DNA from: Planctomycetia bacterium
Lineage (GTDB): Bacteria > Planctomycetota > Planctomycetia > Pirellulales > UBA1268
DNA: 64,000 bases
NCBI GenBank assembly: GCA_014192425.1
Contig: BJHK01000015.1
Location: 1-64,000, forward strand
Direction of reading: 5' to 3'
This document shows positions 8,591-23,127 of this stretch, piece after piece. Numbering within the stretch: position 1 is the stretch's first letter; every line of letters starts with the position of its first letter. The notes under the pieces were generated by a model. It saw nothing but the letters and a program-made list of their open reading frames with translations. It had not been told where the DNA came from and did no database searches. A program made the position numbers and the translations under genes.

Positions 8591-8765
8591 CGCCGGTTCC
8601 TCGCCTCTCGTCGTGCCCGGACCCCGTCGGTCCCCCAGATTATCCGCTTGCCGGCGTTCGCCGCACAGGTTTCCCCGTCCGCTCATGCCGCCCGACCGGA
8701 GGAGACGATACAAGCCGCAGGGTCCGACCCCGTACGCGCCTTTCGTCCCCTCCGGATTCGGAGCC

Positions 8766-9635
8766 ATGTCGCAGCCCTCCGCAGCCACCGTCGCCTCCCC
8801 GTCCGGCGTCGCCGGCTGGCTCGTCGGTCAGGTGGCGAATGTCGGCGGTTTCACGATGGGCTGGATCGCCGGGGTCGGCGACGTGGTGCTGTTCGCCCTG
8901 CGCACGCTGGGCTGGATCGTCGCCCGGCGCCAGCGCCGCGACGTGCTCCTGCCGGCGTTCTATGGCATCGGCGTCCTGTCGCTGCCCGTCGTCGCCCTCA
9001 CCGGCCTGTTCATCGGCATGGTGCTCGCCGTGCAGAGCTTCGGGCAGTTCAAGGCCCTCGGCCTGGAGACGCGGCTCGGCTCCGTCATCAACCTGTCGCT
9101 GGTCCGGGAGCTGGGCCCGGTGCTGGCGGCGACGATGCTCGCCGGCCGCGTTGGCAGCGCCATGGCGGCCGAGCTGGGCACGATGCGGGTCACGGAGCAG
9201 ATCGACGCCCTGGAGAGCATGGGTGCCAATCCGATCTACTACCTGGTCGTGCCCCGGTTCCTCGGCTGCCTCGTCCTCATCCCGTCGCTGACGGTGATGG
9301 CCGACTTCATGGGCGTGCTCGGCGGCTACCTGTACTCGCACGTCCTCCTCGGGATCGACTACCACCACTACTGGGAGAATTCCCGCGAGTACGTCGATGC
9401 CTTCGACTTCCTGATGGGCATCTTCAAGAGCCTGTTCTTCGGGGCCGCGATCGCGCTGGTCAGCTGCCACCATGGCTTCCATTGCGAGCATGGGGCCGAG
9501 GGGGTGGGGCGGGCCGCCACCAACGCCTTCGTCCATTCCTTCGTGCTCATCCTGCTCCTCGACCTGTTCCTCGGCATCGCCCTCAACAACGTCCACGACT
9601 TCTTCCGGCCGGACGGACCGCGCCGCCTGCTCTGA
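8766..9635 (+). CDS. mlaE: ABC transporter permease, MlaE family
   Basis: 289 residues with about five or six membrane segments. Family hallmarks are visible: [13 protein letters not shown], the conserved loop [36 protein letters not shown]-type region (about residues 117-150), and a [11 protein letters not shown] loop before the last helices. MlaE forms the inner-membrane permease of MCE systems, which move phospholipid between inner and outer membranes. It is the first gene of a three-gene set (permease, ATPase, MCE protein). A segment [18 protein letters not shown] matches the family's CxxGxxxxxGAxGVGxA motif. The start at 8766 gives a short hydrophilic N-terminus; no clear Shine-Dalgarno is seen. 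Confidence 0.93.
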
Positions 9636-9657
9636 TATCCCGCCGCCCCACGCCGCC

Positions 9658-10536
9658 ATGCCCTCCAGCATCCCCGCCGCCGTCACCAGCGCCGCCGCGC
9701 CTCCGGTGCTCGCGGTCGTCGACCTCGGCGTGCGGTTCGGCAGCCAGCAGGTGCTGCGGGGGATCTCCCTGGAGATCCCCGCCGGCGAGACGCTGGTCGT
9801 GCTCGGCGAGAGCGGCTGCGGCAAGACCGTGCTCCTCAAGACGCTGATCGGCCTTGTCCGGCCGACCAGCGGCGACGTGCTCCTCGAGGGCGCGTCGCTG
9901 GGCCGGATGTCTGACCGGCAGCTCGCCCAGCTGCGCACCCGGTACGGCTTCGTCTTCCAGGGGGCGGCGCTGTTCGACAGCCACTCGATCGCCGACAACG
10001 TCGCCTTTCCGCTGCGCGAGCACACGCGGCTTCCCGGTGAAGATATCGCCGCCATCGTCACGACGCTCGTCGACGAGGTCGGACTGCCACGGTCGGTGCT
10101 CGGCAAGAAACCGGTCGAGCTCTCGGGGGGGATGCGGAAGCGGGCCGGACTGGCCCGCGCCCTGGCGCTCGACCCTCAGGTCGTGCTCTACGACGAGCCG
10201 ACCACCGGGCTCGATCCGATCATGACTGACGTCATCAACGAGCTGATTCTCAAGGTGCGCGCCCGGCCGCAGGCGACGAGCGTGGTGGTGACGCACGACA
10301 TGCAGACGGCCCGCAAGGTGGCCGACCGGATCATCATGCTCTATCCGGCGTTCCGCCTCCGGCCCGACGAGCCGCAGATCATCTTCAGCGGCACACCCGG
10401 TGAACTCGACCGCTGCCCCGACCCGCGGGTCCGGCAGTTCGTCGAGGGCCGGGCGGGGAGCCGGCTCACGGAGCTTCAGGAGGAGCAGGGACTGCTGGCG
10501 ACGACGGCGGCCGCGGCCGCGGAGGAGGGGAGATGA
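9658..10536 (+). CDS. mlaF: ABC transporter ATP-binding protein, MlaF family
   Basis: 292 residues. Walker A is GESGCGKT, the signature is LSGGMRKRAGLARAL (the Met variant is typical of MlaF), Walker B is VVLYDEPTTGLDP, and the H-loop lies in VVVTHDMQTA. It energises the MlaE permease from the cytoplasm. Its ATG lies 22 bp after mlaE, and its TGA overlaps the ATG of the MCE gene (ATGA at 10533-10536), so the three are almost certainly one operon. An Ala-rich tail of about 15 residues follows the conserved domain. Confidence 0.94.
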   Translation: MPSSIPAAVTSAAAPPVLAVVDLGVRFGSQQVLRGISLEIPAGETLVVLGESGCGKTVLLKTLIGLVRPTSGDVLLEGASLGRMSDRQLAQLRTRYGFVFQGAALFDSHSIADNVAFPLREHTRLPGEDIAAIVTTLVDEVGLPRSVLGKKPVELSGGMRKRAGLARALALDPQVVLYDEPTTGLDPIMTDVINELILKVRARPQATSVVVTHDMQTARKVADRIIMLYPAFRLRPDEPQIIFSGTPGELDRCPDPRVRQFVEGRAGSRLTELQEEQGLLATTAAAAAEEGR

Positions 10537-11600
10537 GCGACCGGGTCGTGGAGTTCCGCGTCGGCGTGATGGTGCTGGCCACGGCGATCATCGCCGGCAT
10601 CCTCGTGGTCCTGTTCGGCGACCTGCCGTCGCTCGTGCAGGCGACCTATCCGCTGAAGATGAGCTTCGAGGATGCCCGGGGCATCGCCACCGGCACGCCG
10701 GTGCGGAAGAACGGGATCCTCGTCGGCCGCGTGCGGAGCGTGACGCTCGAGGCGGCGGGTGGCGCCAACGTGGTCGCCGACATCGATTCCCACATCAGCA
10801 TCTACCGCGACGAGCAGCCGCGGATCGCCAGCACGCTGCTCGGTGATGCCGAGATCCAGCTCGTCCCCGGCACCACCCGGCCGCCGCGGCAGCCGCTGGC
10901 GGCGGACGAGGTGCTCGTCGGCGCCGCCTCGCGGGACCCCTTCGAGGTCTTTGCCACGCTGGAACCGAAGATGGGACGGGCGCTCGACTCGCTCACCGAT
11001 GCCAGCGCCGCGGTGACGAAACTCTCGGCCAACGTCGACAAGATGCTGCTCGGCGACGACGACCGGTTCGAGAAGCTCGTCCGCAAGACCGAGGCGGCGC
11101 TCGACGCCTTCAGCGTCGCGATGGCGAACATCAACGACGTCATGGGCGATCCACAGGCGCGGGCCAAGATCAAGCAGACGCTCGACGGCCTGCCGGACGT
11201 GATTGCCGACCTGCGGACGACGGTGCAGGGGATGGGGACGACGATCGACAGCGCCGACCGCAACCTGCGGAACCTGGAGGGGCTGACGCGGCCGCTGGGC
11301 GAGCGTGGCGAGGGGATGGTGGCGTCGATCGACAAGACGATCGGCCGGCTCGACGAGGTGATCAGCCAGGCGGTCGGGTTCACCCGGGCGCTCAACGAGT
11401 CGCAGGGGACGCTCGGCAAGCTGGTCCGCGACCCGCAGGTCTACGACGACCTCGCCCAGGCGGCAGACAACGTCAACCGGCTGACCCGGGAGCTGCGGCC
11501 GATCGTCAACGACGTCCGCGTGTTCACCGACAAGATCGCCCGCCATCCCGAGCAGCTCGGCGTGAAGGGGGCGCTCGACCGCCGCCCCGGCCTGAAGTGA
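10533..11600 (+). CDS. mlaD: MCE/MlaD family substrate-binding protein
   Basis: 355 residues. One N-terminal membrane helix (about 10-30) anchors the protein. An MCE domain follows (about 38-115) with the typical YPLKMSFEDARGIATGTPVRKNGILVGRV segment. The rest is a long helical region rich in hydrophilic heptads (SLTDASAAVTKLSANVDKML and following), as in MlaD-like proteins that form a lipid tunnel toward the outer membrane. It is longer than E. coli MlaD (about 180 residues) and closer to YrbD/Mce-type proteins of other phyla. No mlaB, mlaC or mlaA gene is adjacent. Confidence 0.92.
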   Translation: MSDRVVEFRVGVMVLATAIIAGILVVLFGDLPSLVQATYPLKMSFEDARGIATGTPVRKNGILVGRVRSVTLEAAGGANVVADIDSHISIYRDEQPRIASTLLGDAEIQLVPGTTRPPRQPLAADEVLVGAASRDPFEVFATLEPKMGRALDSLTDASAAVTKLSANVDKMLLGDDDRFEKLVRKTEAALDAFSVAMANINDVMGDPQARAKIKQTLDGLPDVIADLRTTVQGMGTTIDSADRNLRNLEGLTRPLGERGEGMVASIDKTIGRLDEVISQAVGFTRALNESQGTLGKLVRDPQVYDDLAQAADNVNRLTRELRPIVNDVRVFTDKIARHPEQLGVKGALDRRPGLK

Positions 11601-12195
11601 CGGGGTCCCATGCATCCGGACGTCAGGATGGTCCGGTCACTGGCACCTCCGCAATCCTTTCCGAGCTGCTGAGCGGCTCGTGAGCCTCGAGGGGGGCGGC
11701 CTCGGCGTCCGGTGGCGGCTCGAGAGGTTCGCCGAGGTGTGTCAGCGGCTGACTTCACGCGGGCTTGCGCATCCTGGCCTTCTCCCGCTTGCGAACCGCC
11801 GGTCGTACGTGTCGAAATCGGTGATCGTCAGCGGTGCAGCCATGGCGGCCTCGGAAACCAGGTTCTTGGTCCCGCAGCCCCGCGAAGCGCCCCACTCCTT
11901 CCAGGCTGCGGAAGGCGCAGGATACCGTTTCTCAGCCGATTCCCAGGCGACCGACGCTCGCAGTCGACCGCCGCGGCTGGAACGGTCGATCCGCGCCGCG
12001 CGGTCAAAGGCCATCCCTCTCCTATGGGCACGCGAAAAGCTGTGCTTTTCGCGTGAGCTGCGCTCCCGGGCACCTGATCCGTGAGGTGCTGCATGCTGTT
12101 TGGCCACAGCCTGCTAGGATCGCGCGACCCCGCCCACGGCGCGGCCGGAGGATCCGGCGCGCGAAAGGTGGATCGACGGCCCTGCCGAGGAAGTC
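11601..12195. other. intergenic region without a convincing gene
   Basis: About 595 bp between the Mla operon and the channel gene. Several overlapping open frames exist on both strands, but none has a family motif or a clear start context, and their compositions look like chance. The only structured element seen is the perfect hairpin at 12029-12055, listed separately. Confidence 0.5.
12029..12055. repeat. perfect 12-bp stem, 3-nt loop hairpin
   Basis: CACGCGAAAAGC and its exact complement GCTTTTCGCGTG are separated only by TGT. It lies about 140 bp before the channel gene start. It has no following T-run in either direction, so it is not a standard intrinsic terminator. It could be an RNA stem in a leader or a protein-binding palindrome. 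Confidence 0.7.
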
Positions 12196-12870
12196 ATGCT
12201 GCCGTTCCGCATCACGAACCGTCCCCCGAATCCGAATGGCGGCGCGTGGATCTTCGGCCTGCAACTGCTGCTCGTGATCCTCGTGCCGATCCTCGACGAC
12301 GGCGCGCCGCTCGCCCCACTGGCGTACGTCGCCGTGCTGCTCGGCGTGCTGGCGGCGACGGTCTATCTGCTCGGCTACAGGCGCACCGCGGCGACGATCG
12401 CCGCCGGCGGCGCCGGGATGCTCGGAGTGGTGTTTCTAAGCGGCCTGAAGACCGGCCCGATCCGGTTGCTCCTCTGGGGCACGCTCATGCTGGCCGGGAC
12501 GACGACGGTGGCCCTGACGCTCAAGAGTGCCTTCGCCGCGGGGGTGCCCCCCGTGCAGCGGATCTTCTGCGGCGCGGCCGGCTACGTGATGCTCGGCTTC
12601 GTGTTCGCCGCGATCCACGGGCTGGTCGGCCTCCTCGTCGGGGGCGGCTACGTCGTCGAGTCGGGGGTCGAGCTGGCCCGGCAGATCCATTGGAGCGACT
12701 ATCTCTGGTTGAGCTTTGCCACGCTCACCACCGCTGGTTTCGGTGATGTCGTCACCGTCGGTTCGGCGCCGAGTGCCGTGGCGACGATCGAGGCCCTTGC
12801 CGGGATCCTCTTCCCCGCCACGCTCATCGCCCGCATCGCGTCGCTCGACGACAATGACCGGCGCGAGTGA
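12196..12870 (+). CDS. potassium-channel-like membrane protein (ion_trans_2 pore)
   Basis: 224 residues with about six hydrophobic segments. The pore region lies between the last two (residues about 172-190): WLSFATLTTAGFGDVV. TTAGFGD is a variant of the K+ selectivity filter TVGYGD, with Phe at the Tyr position as in many bacterial two-pore-type channels. No RCK/TrkA or cyclic-nucleotide domain follows; the protein ends shortly after the last helix with SLDDNDRRE. It would conduct K+ or another cation across the inner membrane. It lies alone between the Mla operon and the repeat region. Gating cannot be inferred. Confidence 0.85.
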   Translation: MLPFRITNRPPNPNGGAWIFGLQLLLVILVPILDDGAPLAPLAYVAVLLGVLAATVYLLGYRRTAATIAAGGAGMLGVVFLSGLKTGPIRLLLWGTLMLAGTTTVALTLKSAFAAGVPPVQRIFCGAAGYVMLGFVFAAIHGLVGLLVGGGYVVESGVELARQIHWSDYLWLSFATLTTAGFGDVVTVGSAPSAVATIEALAGILFPATLIARIASLDDNDRRE

Positions 12871-13080
12871 GGTGACGGTGGCGTTGTCGGCACACCGATG
12901 CCGGCCGGCGGGCTGGTATTCCACAGCCTCGTAACGTCGCTCCTGCACGCCCCTGTCATGACCCCGTCGTAGCAGCTTGAGGACATCGAGCTCAAGCACG
13001 ACCCGGATGCGGCCGCCGACGTCGTCCGGCAGTACGACGAGATCAGCGTGACGGGCCTCAAGCTGTGGCCGACGGGGGAG
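12871..13080 (+). pseudogene. possible decayed coding remnant after the channel gene
   Basis: In the same frame as the channel gene and just after its TGA, a protein-like stretch runs GGLVFHSLVTSLLHAP to a TAG at 12970-12972. It then continues QLEDIELKHDPD, DVVRQYDEISVTGLKLW up to the start of the 174-bp repeats. The acidic, low-Arg composition differs from the usual GC-rich chance frames here. I cannot name the family. It may be the wreck of a small gene with an in-frame stop, interrupted by the repeat; it could also be coincidence. Confidence 0.25.
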
Positions 13081-13434
13081 CGGCGAGAGGTTTTTCGCGT
13101 CGTCGCCGCCATCGTGGCCGGCGACGCCTTGGCGGGCCTCCGCCCGCGCGTAAGGCCGCCTTCCCGGCGGCCCGTGCAGTGGCAGCGGCCCGCACGCAGC
13201 GGCCGCAGGCCGCGCCGCGGGCCCACGCCCGGCCGGAAGCCGGGCGGCTCGGCGCGGCGAGAGGTTTTTCGCGTCGTCGCCGCCATCGTGGCCGGCGACG
13301 CCTTGGCGGGCCTCCGCCCGCGCGTAAGGCCGCCTTCCCGGCGGCCCGTGCAGTGGCAGCGGCCCGCACGCAGCGGCCGCAGGCCGCGCCGCGGGCCCAC
13401 GCCCGGCCGGAAGCCGGGCGGCTCGGCGCGGCGA
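13081..13434. repeat. 174-bp direct tandem duplication (two copies)
   Basis: Copy 1 starts at 13081 and copy 2 at 13255, with identical sequence and a period of 174 bp. The first six bases of a third unit (CGGCGA, 13429-13434) close the array. Each unit holds several GC-rich inverted repeats, for example GCCGCC-ttcc-GGCGGC and GCCCGGC-cggaa-GCCGGGC. Open frames cross it because 174 is divisible by three, but their products are Arg/Pro/Ala-rich and not protein-like. It lies downstream of both the channel gene and cphA. Confidence 0.93.
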
Positions 13435-13455
13435 ACCTTGGCTTCGCCCCGCCGA

Positions 13456-13545
13456 GCGTAAGCCTGCGAGGGCCAGGATGGCCTCGCAGGCGCGATACAC
13501 AGCGCGTAAGCCTGCGCGGGCCAGGATGGCCTCGCAGGCGCGATA
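13456..13545. repeat. paired 42-bp hairpin repeats (period 48) after cphA stop
   Basis: Two near-identical 42-bp units (13456-13497 and 13504-13545) each contain CCTGCGAGG...CCTCGCAGG around a CCAGGAT core. The copy nearer cphA has one stem mismatch. They begin 2 bp beyond the cphA stop codon when read on the minus strand. They may therefore act as 3'-UTR stem-loops, for termination or transcript protection. No T-run follows, so a classical intrinsic terminator is not shown. Confidence 0.8.
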
Positions 13546-13546
13546 G

Positions 13547-16500
13547 TCACACCCCCGCCGGCAGCGTGGCGTCGGCGTCGATGATCCGCAGGTACTCGGC
13601 GACGAACTCCCCGTAGCGGGCCTTCACGTCGCTGGCGAGATGCCGATAGCCCGCGATCCGCACCCGGCAGGTCTTCTCCCCGCAGCGGCACGGTCCGCCG
13701 AGGTGCGTGACCTCGTACTCGAACGTGTCGTAGTCCACCGTGATCTCCTCGCCGGCCGGGATCGGCCGCAGGGCGCGGAACTCGATCTGCTTGACGCCGG
13801 AGCGGATCACGACCCCGCAGTTGGGCGCACAGGAATGGTTGACGAGCACCGCCACGCCGTCGGGAACGATGTGCGTCGTGACATCGACCTGGATCGTGTG
13901 CTGGGACCGCTGCCCGGCCTGCTCGCCCCACGTCTTGATGATCGATTCGCCCGCGGCGATGTCGCGGACAGCGCAGACGCCGAGGCCGAGTTTGCCGGCA
14001 CGCACCTCGACCGGCTCGCCGGGCTGGGGCGCCCGCTCGCCGAGACCATGGGCGGCCGGACCGGCGAGCTCGTCGAACGACATCTCGCGCAGCCGGGCCC
14101 CATACCGCTCCGCCAGCCAGGGGAGCGTCTGCTCGACCGTGTCGGGCTGGAGGAGGATCAGATCCCCCGCTGCGGCCGCGTCGAGGACAAGGCCGGCCGC
14201 CTCGGCCCACGTCCCACCCGCCTCGATCGCCACCGGACGGTCGGCCGGCATCCCCTCGCCGATGCCCTGGGAGATGAGCCGCGTGATCTCGCCCGGCTGC
14301 CGGCCACGGATGTAGGCATCCTCGTAGATCACCACGCGCTCGAACGTCCGCCCCAGCAGCCGACCCTGGGTGATCAGGTCCTCGTCGCGCCGGTCGCCGG
14401 CGGCCGAGTAGACGGCGATCCGCCGGGCGGAGGGGAGCTTGTGCATCGTCAGGCAGATCTGCTCCAGCGACGGCACGTTGTGGCCGTAGTCGACCACGAT
14501 CGAGGCCCCCCCGAGGTCGAGGAGATTGAAACGCCCGGGCGACCCGGTCGCGCCGCGGGAGAAGCTCTCCAGCCCGAGCCGGACCAGTTCCAGCGGCACG
14601 CCCATCCGCCACGCTGCGGCGGCACTGGCGAGGACGTTCTCCACCTGGAAGGAGACCAGGCCGCGATGCACCAGCGGCACGCGATCGAGGTGGGCGAGGC
14701 GGGTCTCACGCGGGCCGTCGCAGAGCACGATCCAGCCGTCACGCAGCGTCGCAGCCAGGCCACCCTGCGCCAGGTGCTCGACGATCACCGGATTGGCCGG
14801 GTCGAGACCGAAGTACACCACCTGCCCCTTGCACCACTTCTTCATGGCGACGACGAGCGGGTCGGCCGCGTTGAGCACCGCCGCCCCGCCCGGCCGCACC
14901 GCGGCCACGATTGCCCCCTTCACCCAGGCGATCTGCTCGGGTGTGTCGATCTCCCCGATGCCGAGGTGATCGCCGGAGGCGATGTTGGTGACCACGGCCA
15001 CGTCGCACGTGTCGAAGCCGCAGCCCTCGCGCAGGATGCCTCCTCGCGCCGTCTCGAGCACGGCCGCGTTGACCGACGGATTCGCCAGCACCCGGCGGGC
15101 GCTCTTCGGTCCGCTGCAGTCGCCGGTGTCGATCACCCGGCCGCCGACCGAGACGCACTCGGTGCAGGTCATGCCCACCGTGCCGCCGCCGATCCCGCAG
15201 AGGTGGGAGATGAGCCGGACGACCGTCGTCTTGCCGTTCGTGCCGGTGACGGCGGCGGTGGGAATCCGGCCGTCGTCGCCCGGCGGGAAGAGCATGTCGA
15301 CGATGGCGGCGCCGACGTTCCGCGGCGTTCCCACGGTCGGTTCCAGATGCATCCGCAGGCCGGGGGAGGCATTGACCTCGATGATCACCCCGCGCTGTTC
15401 GAGCGGCTGGCCGATGTCGGCGCTGACGAGGTCGATGCCGGCCACGTCGAGGCCGATGACCCGCGCCGCCTCGACCGCCCGGGCGGCGACGTCGGGGTGG
15501 ACGAGGTCGGTGACGTCTTCGGAGGTGCCTCCCGTGCTGAGGTTGGCGCTGTGCCGGAGAAGGATGGTCCGGCCCGCCTCCACCACGTCGTCGACGGCGA
15601 GGCCCTGCTCGGCGAGCACGGCCACCGCCACCTCGTCGAGGACCACCGGGCTGAGGACGCCCGCATGGTCGCCGCAGCGCCGCGGATCCTCGTTGACGGC
15701 ATCGACGAGCTGACGCACGGTGGCGCTGCCGGTGCCGGTGACAATGGGCGGATGCCGCCGGGCGGCAGCCACCATCCGGCCGCCCACGACGAGCACGCGG
15801 TAGTCGCCGCCGGCGACGAACCGCTCGACCACGACGGCCCGTTCACCCGCATGGGCGACGTGCCAGGCCCGCTCCACCTCCGCGCGGGTGGCGAGGTTCA
15901 CCGACACGCCCTTCCCCTGGTTGCCGTAGCGCGGCTTGACCACCACCGGCAGGCCGATCTCCTCGGCCGCTGCCCAGGCGGCCGCGGGTGAGTCAGCCGG
16001 CTGCCCCTCCGGCACCGGGATGCCGGCCTGGGCGAGGAGCGACCGCGTCAGGTCCTTGTCCTGGGCGATCGTCTCGGCGATGGCGCCGGTGCGATCGGTC
16101 TCCGCGGCGAGGATCCGGCGCTGCTTCGCCCCCTGGCCGAGGCGGACGAGCGAACCCGCCGTGAGCCGGCTGGCGGGGATGCCGCGGGCCGCCGCGGCCT
16201 CGACGATCGACCGCGTGCTCGGGCCGAGCTGCTCGTCGAGGAGCAGCGTTCGCAGCCGCTTGATCTCGCTCGTGACGTCGAACGCGGTGTTGTCGATCGC
16301 CGCCAGCAGCAGCCGCCGCGCGGCGTGCAGGCACTCGATGGCGAACGCCTCTTCCTTGTACTCGACGACCACCTTGTAGACGCCGCTGGTGTTGGTCTCG
16401 CGGGCCCGGCCGTAGCCGACCGGCGAACCGGAGAGTGTCTGCAGTTCGAGCGTGACGTGCTCGAGAATGTGCCCCATCCACGTCCCGCGCCGAAGCCGCT

Positions 16501-16699
16501 CGAAGAAGCCGCCGCGCTCGCCGATCGAGCAGCGGTGCTCGATCATGCTCGGCAGCCAGGCCATGAGCCGGTCGTTGAAGCCGGGGAGCGTGTCGGAGGG
16601 GAATTCCTCGAGCCGGCCGATGTCGACCCAGGCTTCGAGGCAGGGGAAACTGGCCCACTGGTTGGGGCCACGCAGAACCTTGAGCGACTTGATCTCCAT
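13547..16699 (-). CDS. cphA: cyanophycin synthetase with C-terminal SET + post-SET domain
   Basis: 1050 residues, against roughly 870-900 for ordinary CphA. Cyanophycin synthetase builds a poly-Asp backbone and adds Arg (or Lys) to each side chain, using ATP. The CphA N-terminal domain is residues about 1-160. An ATP-grasp domain follows, with VVVKPRYGNQGKGV (Lys255) and IIEVNASPGL (441-447). The Mur-ligase-like domain has P-loop GTNGKTT (486-492), CphA signature ETARGGILR (549-557), TNIASGDHLG and VDYGHNVPS (736-744). The extra part (about 897-1020) is a SET domain: LGLGVCAVRDIAAGE, NHSCAPN (954-960), EEITVDYD (to 991), then post-SET CRCGEKTC with Cys 1004, 1006, 1011. SET proteins are SAM-dependent lysine methyltransferases. 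The frame is continuous across the junction with no stop. The gene is divergent from the ABC/DUF1854 pair. Activity of the SET part is inferred from motifs only. Confidence 0.95.
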   Translation of the reverse strand: MEIKSLKVLRGPNQWASFPCLEAWVDIGRLEEFPSDTLPGFNDRLMAWLPSMIEHRCSIGERGGFFERLRRGTWMGHILEHVTLELQTLSGSPVGYGRARETNTSGVYKVVVEYKEEAFAIECLHAARRLLLAAIDNTAFDVTSEIKRLRTLLLDEQLGPSTRSIVEAAAARGIPASRLTAGSLVRLGQGAKQRRILAAETDRTGAIAETIAQDKDLTRSLLAQAGIPVPEGQPADSPAAAWAAAEEIGLPVVVKPRYGNQGKGVSVNLATRAEVERAWHVAHAGERAVVVERFVAGGDYRVLVVGGRMVAAARRHPPIVTGTGSATVRQLVDAVNEDPRRCGDHAGVLSPVVLDEVAVAVLAEQGLAVDDVVEAGRTILLRHSANLSTGGTSEDVTDLVHPDVAARAVEAARVIGLDVAGIDLVSADIGQPLEQRGVIIEVNASPGLRMHLEPTVGTPRNVGAAIVDMLFPPGDDGRIPTAAVTGTNGKTTVVRLISHLCGIGGGTVGMTCTECVSVGGRVIDTGDCSGPKSARRVLANPSVNAAVLETARGGILREGCGFDTCDVAVVTNIASGDHLGIGEIDTPEQIAWVKGAIVAAVRPGGAAVLNAADPLVVAMKKWCKGQVVYFGLDPANPVIVEHLAQGGLAATLRDGWIVLCDGPRETRLAHLDRVPLVHRGLVSFQVENVLASAAAAWRMGVPLELVRLGLESFSRGATGSPGRFNLLDLGGASIVVDYGHNVPSLEQICLTMHKLPSARRIAVYSAAGDRRDEDLITQGRLLGRTFERVVIYEDAYIRGRQPGEITRLISQGIGEGMPADRPVAIEAGGTWAEAAGLVLDAAAAGDLILLQPDTVEQTLPWLAERYGARLREMSFDELAGPAAHGLGERAPQPGEPVEVRAGKLGLGVCAVRDIAAGESIIKTWGEQAGQRSQHTIQVDVTTHIVPDGVAVLVNHSCAPNCGVVIRSGVKQIEFRALRPIPAGEEITVDYDTFEYEVTHLGGPCRCGEKTCRVRIAGYRHLASDVKARYGEFVAEYLRIIDADATLPAGV

Positions 16700-17702
16700 G
16701 GGAGGGCGTAATGCTCTTTGTTAGGCTCGACGCAGACGCGTGCGTGAGCCTGGTCGTGTGCGCCTCTTCCAGCCGCGGGACAATCCGACGGATTGATCTG
16801 GAAAGGAGGTCGCACGGTTCACAACGGGGCTGCGCAGACGCGTCGCCTGCACAGTCCTGCCTGCGGGGGCAGGCATCCGTACGAACCCGACGTGGTGAGT
16901 GTGCGTCAGGGCGGCTGGCAGTCCGGAGCCGCTGGAGAGATGCCGCCGGAAGAGACCGCTGTCTGCGGCGGCGAGGCCTTCGGATCGCGAAGGCCTGGTG
17001 ACAACGAGAGGGGAAAGATTCCGAGAACCAATCGACCGGCCGGGGTGGCCATGGGAGGGATGAATTCCTACACCGCCAGGCCGGTTTGAACCGCCGCACG
17101 CCACACGGACGCGCGTTCGCTTGCGGTTCCCGTTCCTCGCGGCACCTTGAATCCGACACCGGCTTCGCCCGTCTTGAGGACGGGCGTCACCGTCTCGGCC
17201 GCGGAGTTCATGACGATTGAACGTCACAACCTTCGCGTACCGATGGAAAGAGTTTACGCTGCCCGGGGTCGGGAACGAAACTTTTTTCAACACCAGAACC
17301 TGGATGCACGTGCCGTGCCGGATCGATCGGCGACCGCCATTTTTCGCTTCGGACGCGGCAAACAAGGCCTTGCCCGCACGCAACGCCTTCCGGGCGATGG
17401 AAGAAACGACACACCGTCCCGGCGTCTTCGGGCCGGCCGGGGACAAGAACAGGAACATTTTGCAGATCGGGAGAGCCGCGGACATCAGCCTGCGCATCAG
17501 CCCTGATTGCTCTGCCACGGATCTGTGTGGTTCGAACGCGTCCACTGCCTTGGCACAACGAACGCAGTAATTTAGATATGTTCGGCAGGCGACGCAAGTT
17601 TCCAGGAATCGATGCCGGCGGCTCGTTTTCCGCGGAAAAACCGGATTGTCGAGTCTTTTTTGCCACGTTCCCTCCCGCCTGCCGGCGTGCCGGCGGCCAT
17701 GG
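16700..17702. other. 1-kb non-coding region between divergent cphA and ABC genes
   Basis: No frame here carries a recognisable domain, and the sequence is clearly less GC-rich than its surroundings, mainly from 17190 to 17650. It should hold the promoters for both directions. Two tight hairpins are visible: TGCCTGC-gggg-GCAGGCA (16858-16875), and CGCCCGTC-ttgag-GACGGGCG (17166-17186). I looked for RNase P, tmRNA, SRP and 6S signatures and saw none. Confidence 0.55.
17166..17186. repeat. 8-bp stem hairpin in the cphA/ABC intergenic region
   Basis: CGCCCGTC and GACGGGCG flank a five-base loop TTGAG. There is no T-run on either side. It may be an operator or a leader stem; nothing more can be said. 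Confidence 0.5.
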
Positions 17703-20036
17703 ATGCCGTTGATGGGCCAGTCAATCCAGTCCGATCGTCGCGGTCCTGCCACCGGTGCCGCGGAGGAGGGCGGGCTGCCGTGGGCCGGTGCCGTCGCGCT
17801 CGAGGATGGTGAGACGCTGCTCGCCACCTGCCGGTTCGACCTCGACGCCGACCTGCGGTTTGCGGAGGGCTGGATCGCGCTCACGAACCGGCGGCTGTTC
17901 GCCGATCGGCCGGCTTCGGCCGACGCCACGGCGGCGGCCGAGACGGGGCCGCGGTCGTGGTCGATCGACGCGCGGACACACCTCGACGTCCACGTGCGCG
18001 GTGCCGTGGGCCGCATCGAGCTTTCACAGGGGGAACGGATTGTCGCCCGCTGGCTGTTCACGCTCGCCCGGGCCAAGGGCGTGCATGCCCTGGAGGATGC
18101 CTTCGACCGCCTGCGGTCGGAAGAATCTCGGGAGGGCGGGCCGCCCGTGGCGGCCGGTCGGCCGGCCGCCGCCGACGCCACCGACGGCGGCGATGAGCAG
18201 GAAGCCGCTCCGGCCGCGCCCCCCGCTGGCCGCGGCGGCGACGCGGACGGATTCGCCGGCGCCGGCGCGGATGGCTCGTGGCATGCGCTCGTCCGTGTGC
18301 TTGCGTTCGCCCGACCGTATGCCGGGATGGCGATCCTCGGCGGCCTGCTGTCGCTGGCGAGCACGGCCGCGGCCCTCGTGCCGCCATACCTGACGATGCC
18401 GCTCGTGGACGACGTCCTCATCAAGCGGCAGGGGGGCGCGGACGTGCCGTTCGCGCTCGTCTGGTGGTACCTCGGCGGCCTGCTCGCGGCGGCCGTCGCA
18501 GCCTGGCTCCTGTCGTGGGCGCAGATGTGGACGCTCGCCTGGGTGAGCGAGCGGATCGCCGCCGGCCTGCGGACCCGGACCTACGCCCACATGCAGTCGC
18601 TGTCGCTCGACTTCTTCCAGGCGAAGCGGACGGGCGACCTGATGTCGCGGGTCGGGAGCGACACCGACAAGATCAACATCTTCCTGTCGGTGAACCTCAT
18701 CGAGTTCGCGTCGAACGTCATGCTCCTCGTCCTCACGGCCGCCGTGCTCGCCTGGCTGAGCCCGCTGCTCGCCCTGCTCACGCTCGTCCCATTTCCGTTC
18801 GTGGTCTGGCTCGTGTACGCCGTCCGCGAGCGGCTCCGGCGCGGCTTCGGCCGGGCGAGCGTCGCCTGGGGCGACATGACGAGCGTGCTCACCGACACCA
18901 TTCCCGGGATCCGTGTCGTCAAGGCCTTCGCCCAGGAGTCGCGCGAGATCGACCGCTTCCACGCGGCCAACGACAAGGTCCTGGAAGCCAACGACCGGGT
19001 CAACGTGGTGTGGGCGTTCTTCGGCCCCTTGGTCAGCCTGTTCAGTGAGATCGGCCTGCTCGTCGTCTGGGTGGCGGGGGCGTGGCTGGTGTTCGACGGG
19101 GGCGTCACCGTCGGCAAGCTGACGGCGTTCCTGGCCTACATCGCCCGGTTCTATGGCCGCGTCGAGTCGATGATCCGCATGGTGCCGGCGACGCAGCGGG
19201 CGGCAGCCAGCGCCCAGCGGATCTTCGAGATCCTCGACTGCCGGCCGACCGTCGCCGAGGCGTTGCGGCCGGTACGGCCGGGGCGGGTCAAGGGGCGGAT
19301 CGAGATCGCGGGTGTGCACTTTCGCTACGGTGCCCGCGAGGTGCTGCACGGGATCGACCTGGTGATCGAGCCGGGGGAGATGATCGGCCTCGTGGGCACG
19401 AGCGGGTCGGGGAAGTCGACGCTCGCCAACCTCGTCTGCCGGTTCTACGATCCCTCCAGCGGCACGATCAGGGTCGACGGCGTCGACCTGCGCGAGCTGG
19501 CGATCGCCGACTATCACCGCAACCTCGGCTGCGTGCTCCAGGAGCCGTTCCTGTTCTTCGGCACGATCGCCGAGAACATCGCCTACGGCCGGCCGGACGC
19601 CGCGCGGGAGAGCATCGTGGAGGCGGCCCGGGCGGCCGGGGCACACGACTTCATCCTCGCCCAGCCTCTGGCCTACGACTCGCGTCTCGGGGAGCGCGGC
19701 GGCGGCCTGTCCGGCGGCGAGCGGCAGCGGCTCTCGATCGCCCGGGCCCTGCTCGTTGATCCGCGGATCCTCGTCCTCGACGAGGCCACGTCGTCGGTCG
19801 ACGCGGAGACCGAGGCGATCATCCAGGCGGCGATCGACCGGCTCGTCACCGGACGGACGACGATCGCCATCGCCCACCGACTGTCGACCCTGCGCCGGGC
19901 CAACCGGCTCGTCGTCCTCGACGCCGGAAGGATCGTCGAGACCGGGACGCACGACGAGCTGCTGGCGGCGGACGGCGCCTACGCCCGGCTCTACCATGCC
20001 CAGATGAAGGCGGCCGAGGAGGCTGCCGTGCCCTGA
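17703..20036 (+). CDS. cyanophycin-associated ABC exporter (TM + ATPase, extra N-terminal domain)
   Basis: 777 residues from the ATG at 17703; the ATG at 17712 is an alternative. Residues about 20-160 form a beta-rich domain (LLATCRFDLDADLRFAEGWIALTNRRLFAD) resembling a bacterial PH-like fold, then an Ala/Gly-rich linker. An exporter-type six-helix domain follows, with the typical SLSLDFFQAKRTGDLMSRV loop. The ATPase has Walker A GTSGSGKST, signature LSGGERQR and Walker B ILVLDEATSSVD. The gene is followed 18 bp later by a DUF1854 gene. This ABC + DUF1854 pair is known beside cphA in proteobacterial cyanophycin clusters, where its role is undefined. The cphA gene here is divergent, so the association holds. 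Substrate unknown. Confidence 0.93.
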   Translation: MPLMGQSIQSDRRGPATGAAEEGGLPWAGAVALEDGETLLATCRFDLDADLRFAEGWIALTNRRLFADRPASADATAAAETGPRSWSIDARTHLDVHVRGAVGRIELSQGERIVARWLFTLARAKGVHALEDAFDRLRSEESREGGPPVAAGRPAAADATDGGDEQEAAPAAPPAGRGGDADGFAGAGADGSWHALVRVLAFARPYAGMAILGGLLSLASTAAALVPPYLTMPLVDDVLIKRQGGADVPFALVWWYLGGLLAAAVAAWLLSWAQMWTLAWVSERIAAGLRTRTYAHMQSLSLDFFQAKRTGDLMSRVGSDTDKINIFLSVNLIEFASNVMLLVLTAAVLAWLSPLLALLTLVPFPFVVWLVYAVRERLRRGFGRASVAWGDMTSVLTDTIPGIRVVKAFAQESREIDRFHAANDKVLEANDRVNVVWAFFGPLVSLFSEIGLLVVWVAGAWLVFDGGVTVGKLTAFLAYIARFYGRVESMIRMVPATQRAAASAQRIFEILDCRPTVAEALRPVRPGRVKGRIEIAGVHFRYGAREVLHGIDLVIEPGEMIGLVGTSGSGKSTLANLVCRFYDPSSGTIRVDGVDLRELAIADYHRNLGCVLQEPFLFFGTIAENIAYGRPDAARESIVEAARAAGAHDFILAQPLAYDSRLGERGGGLSGGERQRLSIARALLVDPRILVLDEATSSVDAETEAIIQAAIDRLVTGRTTIAIAHRLSTLRRANRLVVLDAGRIVETGTHDELLAADGAYARLYHAQMKAAEEAAVP

Positions 20037-20054
20037 CGGGCAGGAGCACGAACG

Positions 20055-20549
20055 ATGCGAGACAGCGCGGTGACCACGGCGACGGCGCGGGACGGCTGGG
20101 TGCTGGAGCAGCATGCCCACGGCCGGCTGGCCTTCGTATCCGCCGCCGGCCAGCGGCACGACGCCGTGGACGTGCTCCGCGCCTTCCCGATCACCGACCC
20201 CGCGGGGCCGGTCGCCGTCGTGGCGGGCGACGGCGCCGAGCTGGCATGGATTCCCGTCCTGGCGGAGGTGCCGCCCGCCCTCCGGTCGATGCTCGAGGCG
20301 GAGCTGGCCCAGCGCGAGTTCCTGCCCCGGATCGAGCGGATCGAGGCGGTCTCGGACGGCGAGCCGGCGGAGTGGAGCGTCGTCACCGATCGGGGGCCGC
20401 AGCGGTTCAAGGTGGCGGCGGTGGACGACATCACCAGCGACGAGGCCGGGGGTGCGTTCGTCACCGACACCTTCGGCGTCCGTTACCGGATCACGAGCGT
20501 GGCCGCGCTCGACGCCCGGAGCCGGCGGCTGTTCGAGAAGATGTTCTGA
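20055..20549 (+). CDS. DUF1854 family protein (cyanophycin metabolism-associated)
   Basis: 164 residues, cytoplasmic, no signal or membrane segment. DUF1854 features are clear: DVLRAFPITDPAGPVAVV, then ELAWIPVLAEVPPALRSMLEAELAQREFLPRIERI. WSVVTDRGPQRFKV and a C-terminal FGVRYRIT...LDARSRRLFEKMF close the domain. In proteobacteria this family sits beside cphA and the ABC exporter. Its biochemical role has not been established as far as I know. The 18-bp gap to the exporter gene and the GGCAGGAGC ribosome-site-like sequence point to co-expression with it. Confidence 0.92.
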   Translation: MRDSAVTTATARDGWVLEQHAHGRLAFVSAAGQRHDAVDVLRAFPITDPAGPVAVVAGDGAELAWIPVLAEVPPALRSMLEAELAQREFLPRIERIEAVSDGEPAEWSVVTDRGPQRFKVAAVDDITSDEAGGAFVTDTFGVRYRITSVAALDARSRRLFEKMF

Positions 20550-20589
20550 GGTCAGCGGTGGCAGCCGCGGGCTGCGCGGCCGCCCCGAG

Positions 20590-23127
<2,538 letters not shown>

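Follow-up and report, generated by a model that had tools for sequence, protein, structure and literature searches.

We investigated whether a cyanophycin synthetase (CphA) gene of a planctomycete genuinely continues into a SET methyltransferase-like domain, and what such a domain might act on. The polymer that CphA makes, cyanophycin, has been studied as a nitrogen store and is a candidate bioplastic. Here, "the window" is the whole stretch of DNA analysed, 64,000 nucleotides in length.

The CphA-SET fusion gene

A preliminary description had placed an uninterrupted frame at 13547-16699, with a full CphA followed by SET and post-SET motifs. The frame was confirmed, and lies on the minus strand: it runs for 1050 amino acids without a stop (ATG at 16699, stop at 13547-13549). 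Its parts are as follows.

13547-16699, minus strand: CphA-SET fusion gene (frame, NCBIfam and Pfam)
16220-16699, minus strand: CphA N domain, residues 1-160 (Cx19HxxEH motif; Pfam PF18921)
15275-16219, minus strand: CphA G domain (ATP-grasp), residues 161-475 (KPRYGNQGKGV and EVNASP intact)
14105-15268, minus strand: CphA M domain (Mur-ligase-like), residues 478-865 (GTNGKTT, ETARGGI, DYGHN and GDRRD intact)
14009-14104, minus strand: linker, residues 866-897 (faster evolving; AlphaFold2 pLDDT below 50 at residues 881-888)
13664-13987, minus strand: SET and post-SET, residues 905-1012 (N954-H955-S956-C957, catalytic-type Tyr990, Cys 1004/1006/1011)

The fusion is real. An assembly or frame artefact was ruled out because the same uninterrupted frame occurs in 27 genomes of the window's family and also in two other families, and a chance motif match was ruled out by the Pfam SET match, the dN/dS of the SET codons, the AlphaFold2 SET fold and the Foldseek matches. 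The sequence establishes the fusion and its conservation, together with intact motifs at four sites, the selection on the gene and its neighbourhood. Downstream of the fusion gene lie two tandem direct repeats, one at 13077-13424 (two 174-bp copies, 99% identical) and one at 13456-13545 (two 42-bp copies, 98% identical).

Residues 1-865 matched the NCBIfam cyanophycin synthetase models NF010623 (1170 bits, cut-off 877) and TIGR02068 (1048 bits, cut-off 850), passing the curated cut-offs over the full model, and the motifs of both the G and M domains were intact, which places the core in CphA1 and bears out the claim of a full CphA. The primer-making metallopeptidase motif of the N domain, Cx19HxxEH as defined previously (PMC9262961), corresponds to C57, H77, E80 and H81, and was invariant among 28 fused proteins. 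The protein departs from the usual CphA1 architecture, which typically, though not by strict definition, lacks a further C-terminal domain; here SET occupies residues 905-1012 of 1050. The window genome also holds a second CphA paralog of 650 amino acids (L002:1294-3246; G000:C37), with intact ATP-grasp motifs and without the Mur-ligase P-loop, and many genomes of the window's family hold similar paralogs.

The SET domain and its relatives

A homology search of the C-terminal tail found Pfam SET (PF00856) at residues 905-990 (E 1.3e-13; 51.7 bits, cut-off 22.4), and the motifs noticed earlier, NHSCAPN (residues 954-960), EEITVDYD and CRCGEKTC, were all present. The SET motifs were complete and nearly invariant in the 12 fused members compared, and nearly invariant also across 32 fused, adjacent or related SETs. 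In 28 fused proteins, H955, C957, P959 and Y990 were invariant, as were C1004, C1006 and C1011, which form the post-SET CxCx4C motif. The tail alone was modelled by AlphaFold2 as a SET fold (pLDDT 91.6), and in the full-length model SET stands apart behind a flexible linker.

The best fold matches of the tail model in Foldseek were MLL1 (E 8e-10), MLL4 and ASH1L, with BurB also among the top matches, and BurB was the best sequence match in the PDB (E 2.1e-12). Because SET matches both MLL-type enzymes and BurB, its target could plausibly be a protein lysine or the side chain of an amino acid. The SETs linked to CphA clustered in the SET tree (94/93) with one acidobacterial SET, and BurB fell outside this clade on a very long branch. 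A stand-alone generic SET gene of the window genome (G000:C1:243832-244203; 187-aa frame) is distant from the fused SET.

Most known SET enzymes methylate lysines of proteins, and the fused domain might likewise act on lysines of CphA itself, a partner CphA or another protein of the cluster, tuning synthesis or export. The three best fold matches agree with this, as does the full NHSCxPN motif, kept here where BurB has LHSC, but no conserved target lysine was identified, and we consider a regulator of this kind somewhat improbable. A BurB-like enzyme methylating free Lys, Arg, ornithine or Met, whether to supply the M domain with its monomer or to make a separate metabolite, would accord with the closest PDB sequence and with an HTxQ...TH segment common to BurB and the fused SET. 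As BurB sits apart from the CphA-SET clade on a long branch and lacks the asparagine of NHSC, we regard action on a free monomer as unlikely.

Distribution of the fusion and of the SET subfamily

A search of CphA homologues for an extra SET domain, as proposed in the preliminary description, showed that the fusion recurs in three planctomycete families: the window's own (f1), f21, and f23, where the cultured Zavarzinella formosa carries it. In the window's family, it was uninterrupted in 27 of 72 genomes (9 genera; 66-100% identity) and split by contig ends in two more, and about 18 of the 72 had CphA (open frames of roughly 900-1000 amino acids) without SET.

Among 398 genomes sampled from the class, 22 carried the SET subfamily (E 1e-25 or better), and CphA was present in 22 of these 22, a figure that counts related genomes and not independent events; overall, 119 of the 398 had CphA. 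SET was a separate gene directly behind cphA in two genomes (G421 and G118; loci L167 and L136), and lay far from cphA in another CphA-containing genome (G346). One acidobacterial metagenome-assembled genome (MAG) held a related SET without detectable CphA, which speaks for action on a free monomer; the frames scanned beside this SET gave no Pfam match, and may be the wrong ones. In a sample of 392 genomes from the phylum, the same SET was found in the window genome only; known fusion carriers were not repeated in that sample, and the result therefore shows only that SET is rare. A plasmid search for SET returned only distant stand-alone genes.

Selection and loss of SET

Codon changes between close pairs show purifying selection on the SET part, of a strength similar to that on the core: dN/dS was 0.03-0.16 for SET codons in most pairs (0.30 in one very close pair) and 0.04-0.14 for the CphA core, and the linker was under looser constraint than either. 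The fused state is most simply read as ancestral to the window's family and to its join with f23, and SET was lost inside the window's family at least twice, probably three times, according to an M-domain tree that was built by a quick method and has several open forks.

One fused relative (L010:1501-4653) has a damaged SET active site, SHSCSPT, as would be expected if SET served as a binding or assembly domain devoid of methyltransferase activity. However, the M-domain tree places L010 as sister to a clade from which SET was lost, so the damaged site looks like decay and not a second function, and in the other SETs the active-site residues vary little or not at all; a non-catalytic role is thus very improbable.

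A change in core specificity upon SET loss was not supported. The only core changes were T550A, which lies in the M-domain motif ETARGGI and is common to one SET-less clade and L010, and R673K, a weak change matching SET loss in two other clades.

Gene neighbourhood

Two genes on the opposite strand match families named for cyanophycin metabolism, the second just below the family cut-off.

17646-20036, plus strand: cyanophycin metabolism-associated ABC transporter, 796 aa (NF052233, 1020.6 bits, cut-off 880)
20055-20549, plus strand: DUF1854 protein, cyanophycin metabolism-associated type (PF08909, E 1.3e-33; NF052234, 141.8 bits, just under the cut-off of 150)

The ABC transporter gene is divergent from the fusion gene and is kept in relatives, and the same pair also adjoins the Gemmataceae fusions L168 and L172. 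At 8613-11600 on the plus strand, genes for an MlaE-type permease, an ABC ATPase and MlaD stand in a row, and are kept beside the fusion in several loci of the family. No Rfam elements were found within 11500-21000 of the window. Cyanophycinase (TIGR02069) had no match in the window genome and was found in only 3 of the 72 genomes of the family, most of which have CphA; a recognisable cyanophycinase is likewise missing from many CphA-bearing genomes elsewhere (PMC10206079).

A split synthetase in Gemmataceae

In the CphA-SET proteins of the Gemmataceae loci L168, L172, L174 and L175, the ATP-grasp site is degenerate: its lysine, P-loop and Mg ligand are gone. The G domain, measured in L168, L172 and L175, has 236-244 residues versus 315, a loss of about 75, and the Mur-ligase motifs and SET are kept. 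CphA paralogs with an intact ATP-grasp site adjoin these genes or stand a few kilobases off; in L168 and L174 they retain the Mur P-loop and lack the DYGHN and GDRR motifs. A split system of this kind, with a Mur-ligase-plus-SET subunit and a nearby ATP-grasp-active paralog, was seen in L168, L174, L172, L175 and L176. In Zavarzinella, the ATP-grasp region of the fusion gene contains a scaffold gap.

The Gemmataceae SET subunit keeps the Mur motifs and loses ATP-grasp, so SET goes together with the site responsible for adding the basic residue. Such tracking of the Mur-ligase-active subunit would not be required of a general protein-directed regulator.

A possible role in polymer tailoring

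We tentatively read the window protein as a CphA1-type synthetase whose own SET domain, a SAM-dependent methyltransferase, tailors the polymer on the side of the M domain. Primer synthesis would fall to the N site, addition of Asp to the backbone to the G site and attachment of the basic residue to the M site. The flexibly tethered SET would then methylate the basic group of the polymer side chain, and the polymer would be made next to a dedicated ABC transporter. We infer SET activity, the polymer as its substrate and Lys as the residue, the most plausible methyl acceptor being the epsilon-amine of a Lys that the M domain has attached; such methylation may alter polymer charge, solubility or degradability.

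Several observations point in this direction. The kept SET motifs, selection like that on the core and the SET fold suggest it, as do the presence of CphA in all 22 class-sample genomes with the SET subfamily and the ability of an unfused SET to follow cphA directly. The Gemmataceae arrangement, where SET stays with the subunit keeping the Mur-ligase site, is compatible with it. By analogy, BurB, the closest solved SET by sequence, acts on an amino-acid side chain and not on a protein. Moreover, SET was lost more than once with the core almost unchanged, as expected of a tailoring step dispensable for polymerisation. This last pattern would fit a dispensable regulator acting on proteins equally well, and it counts against a free monomer as the substrate, as some change at M-domain positions might be expected if the monomer differed.

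Other observations run against tailoring. CphA attaches mainly Arg, which is outside the known substrates of SET enzymes; to our knowledge, these do not methylate Arg. The best fold matches of the modelled tail include protein (histone H3K4) lysine methyltransferases, the acidobacterial MAG has a related SET without detectable CphA, the SET gene of G346 is far from cphA, and the C-terminal position of SET next to the M domain could be accidental.

More broadly, it is conceivable, if rather doubtful, that planctomycetes make a methylated cyanophycin-like polymer, stored or exported, with a four-site enzyme whose SET methylates basic side chains, and that in Gemmataceae this synthetase has been split into ATP-grasp and Mur-ligase-plus-SET subunits. 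The recurrence of the fusion in three planctomycete families suggests that some bacteria methylate a storage polymer or the machinery that synthesises it. With a methyltransferase built onto the synthetase, these bacteria would have a new natural polymer, changed in charge and stability, or else a new control of polymer synthesis, and SET domains would gain a bacterial role outside chromatin. The cultured carrier Zavarzinella formosa DSM 19928 makes the question testable.

Comparison with known systems

The preliminary description knew of no CphA-SET protein, and the searchable literature agrees: in openly accessible publications other than bioRxiv preprints, we found nothing relevant on a CphA joined to SET, on a methyltransferase associated with planctomycete CphA or on a methylated polymer, and no description of a dedicated cyanophycin-modifying enzyme. 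The novelty of CphA-SET is accordingly provisional.

The window protein shares the N, G and M catalytic motifs, including the primer motif Cx19HxxEH, with CphA1 (7LG5/7LGJ, 7LGM, 7LGN and 7WAC), whose solved chains align to query residues 1-866. These chains have 879-929 residues, the alignments end at query positions 851-866, and none match the SET tail. CphA2, the cyanobacterial dipeptide-polymerising enzyme, keeps only one of two ligase activities, and resembles the Gemmataceae pair in having one working ligase site. CphA2 lacks the N-domain motif (PMC9262961), whereas the window protein has Cx19HxxEH and both ligase sites, and is thus not a CphA2; the Gemmataceae fusions differ in losing the G site and carrying SET. 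Both genes of the cyanophycin-associated ABC/DUF1854 cluster (NF052233 and NF052234) stand beside CphA in the window and in Gemmataceae clusters, but the NCBI family names describe a cluster whose synthetase has no SET domain.

The KMT2/MLL-type histone lysine methyltransferases have the SET/post-SET fold and the NHSCxPNC, GEELTxDY and CxCx4C motifs in common with the fused domain, but belong to eukaryotic chromatin, carry other partner domains and reach a TM-score of only about 0.55-0.60. BurB (9L4T and 9L4V) is a SET-domain methionine S-methyltransferase that methylates free methionine (PMC12542666). It differs from the fused SET in being a stand-alone protein of 172 amino acids, in its free Met substrate, in serving an unrelated pathway and in lacking the Asn of NHSC, but is the closest solved SET by sequence, matches it in fold (TM 0.66), and has in common with it the HTxQ...TH segment (adjacent to the Met-binding residues of BurB), the catalytic Tyr and the post-SET cysteines.
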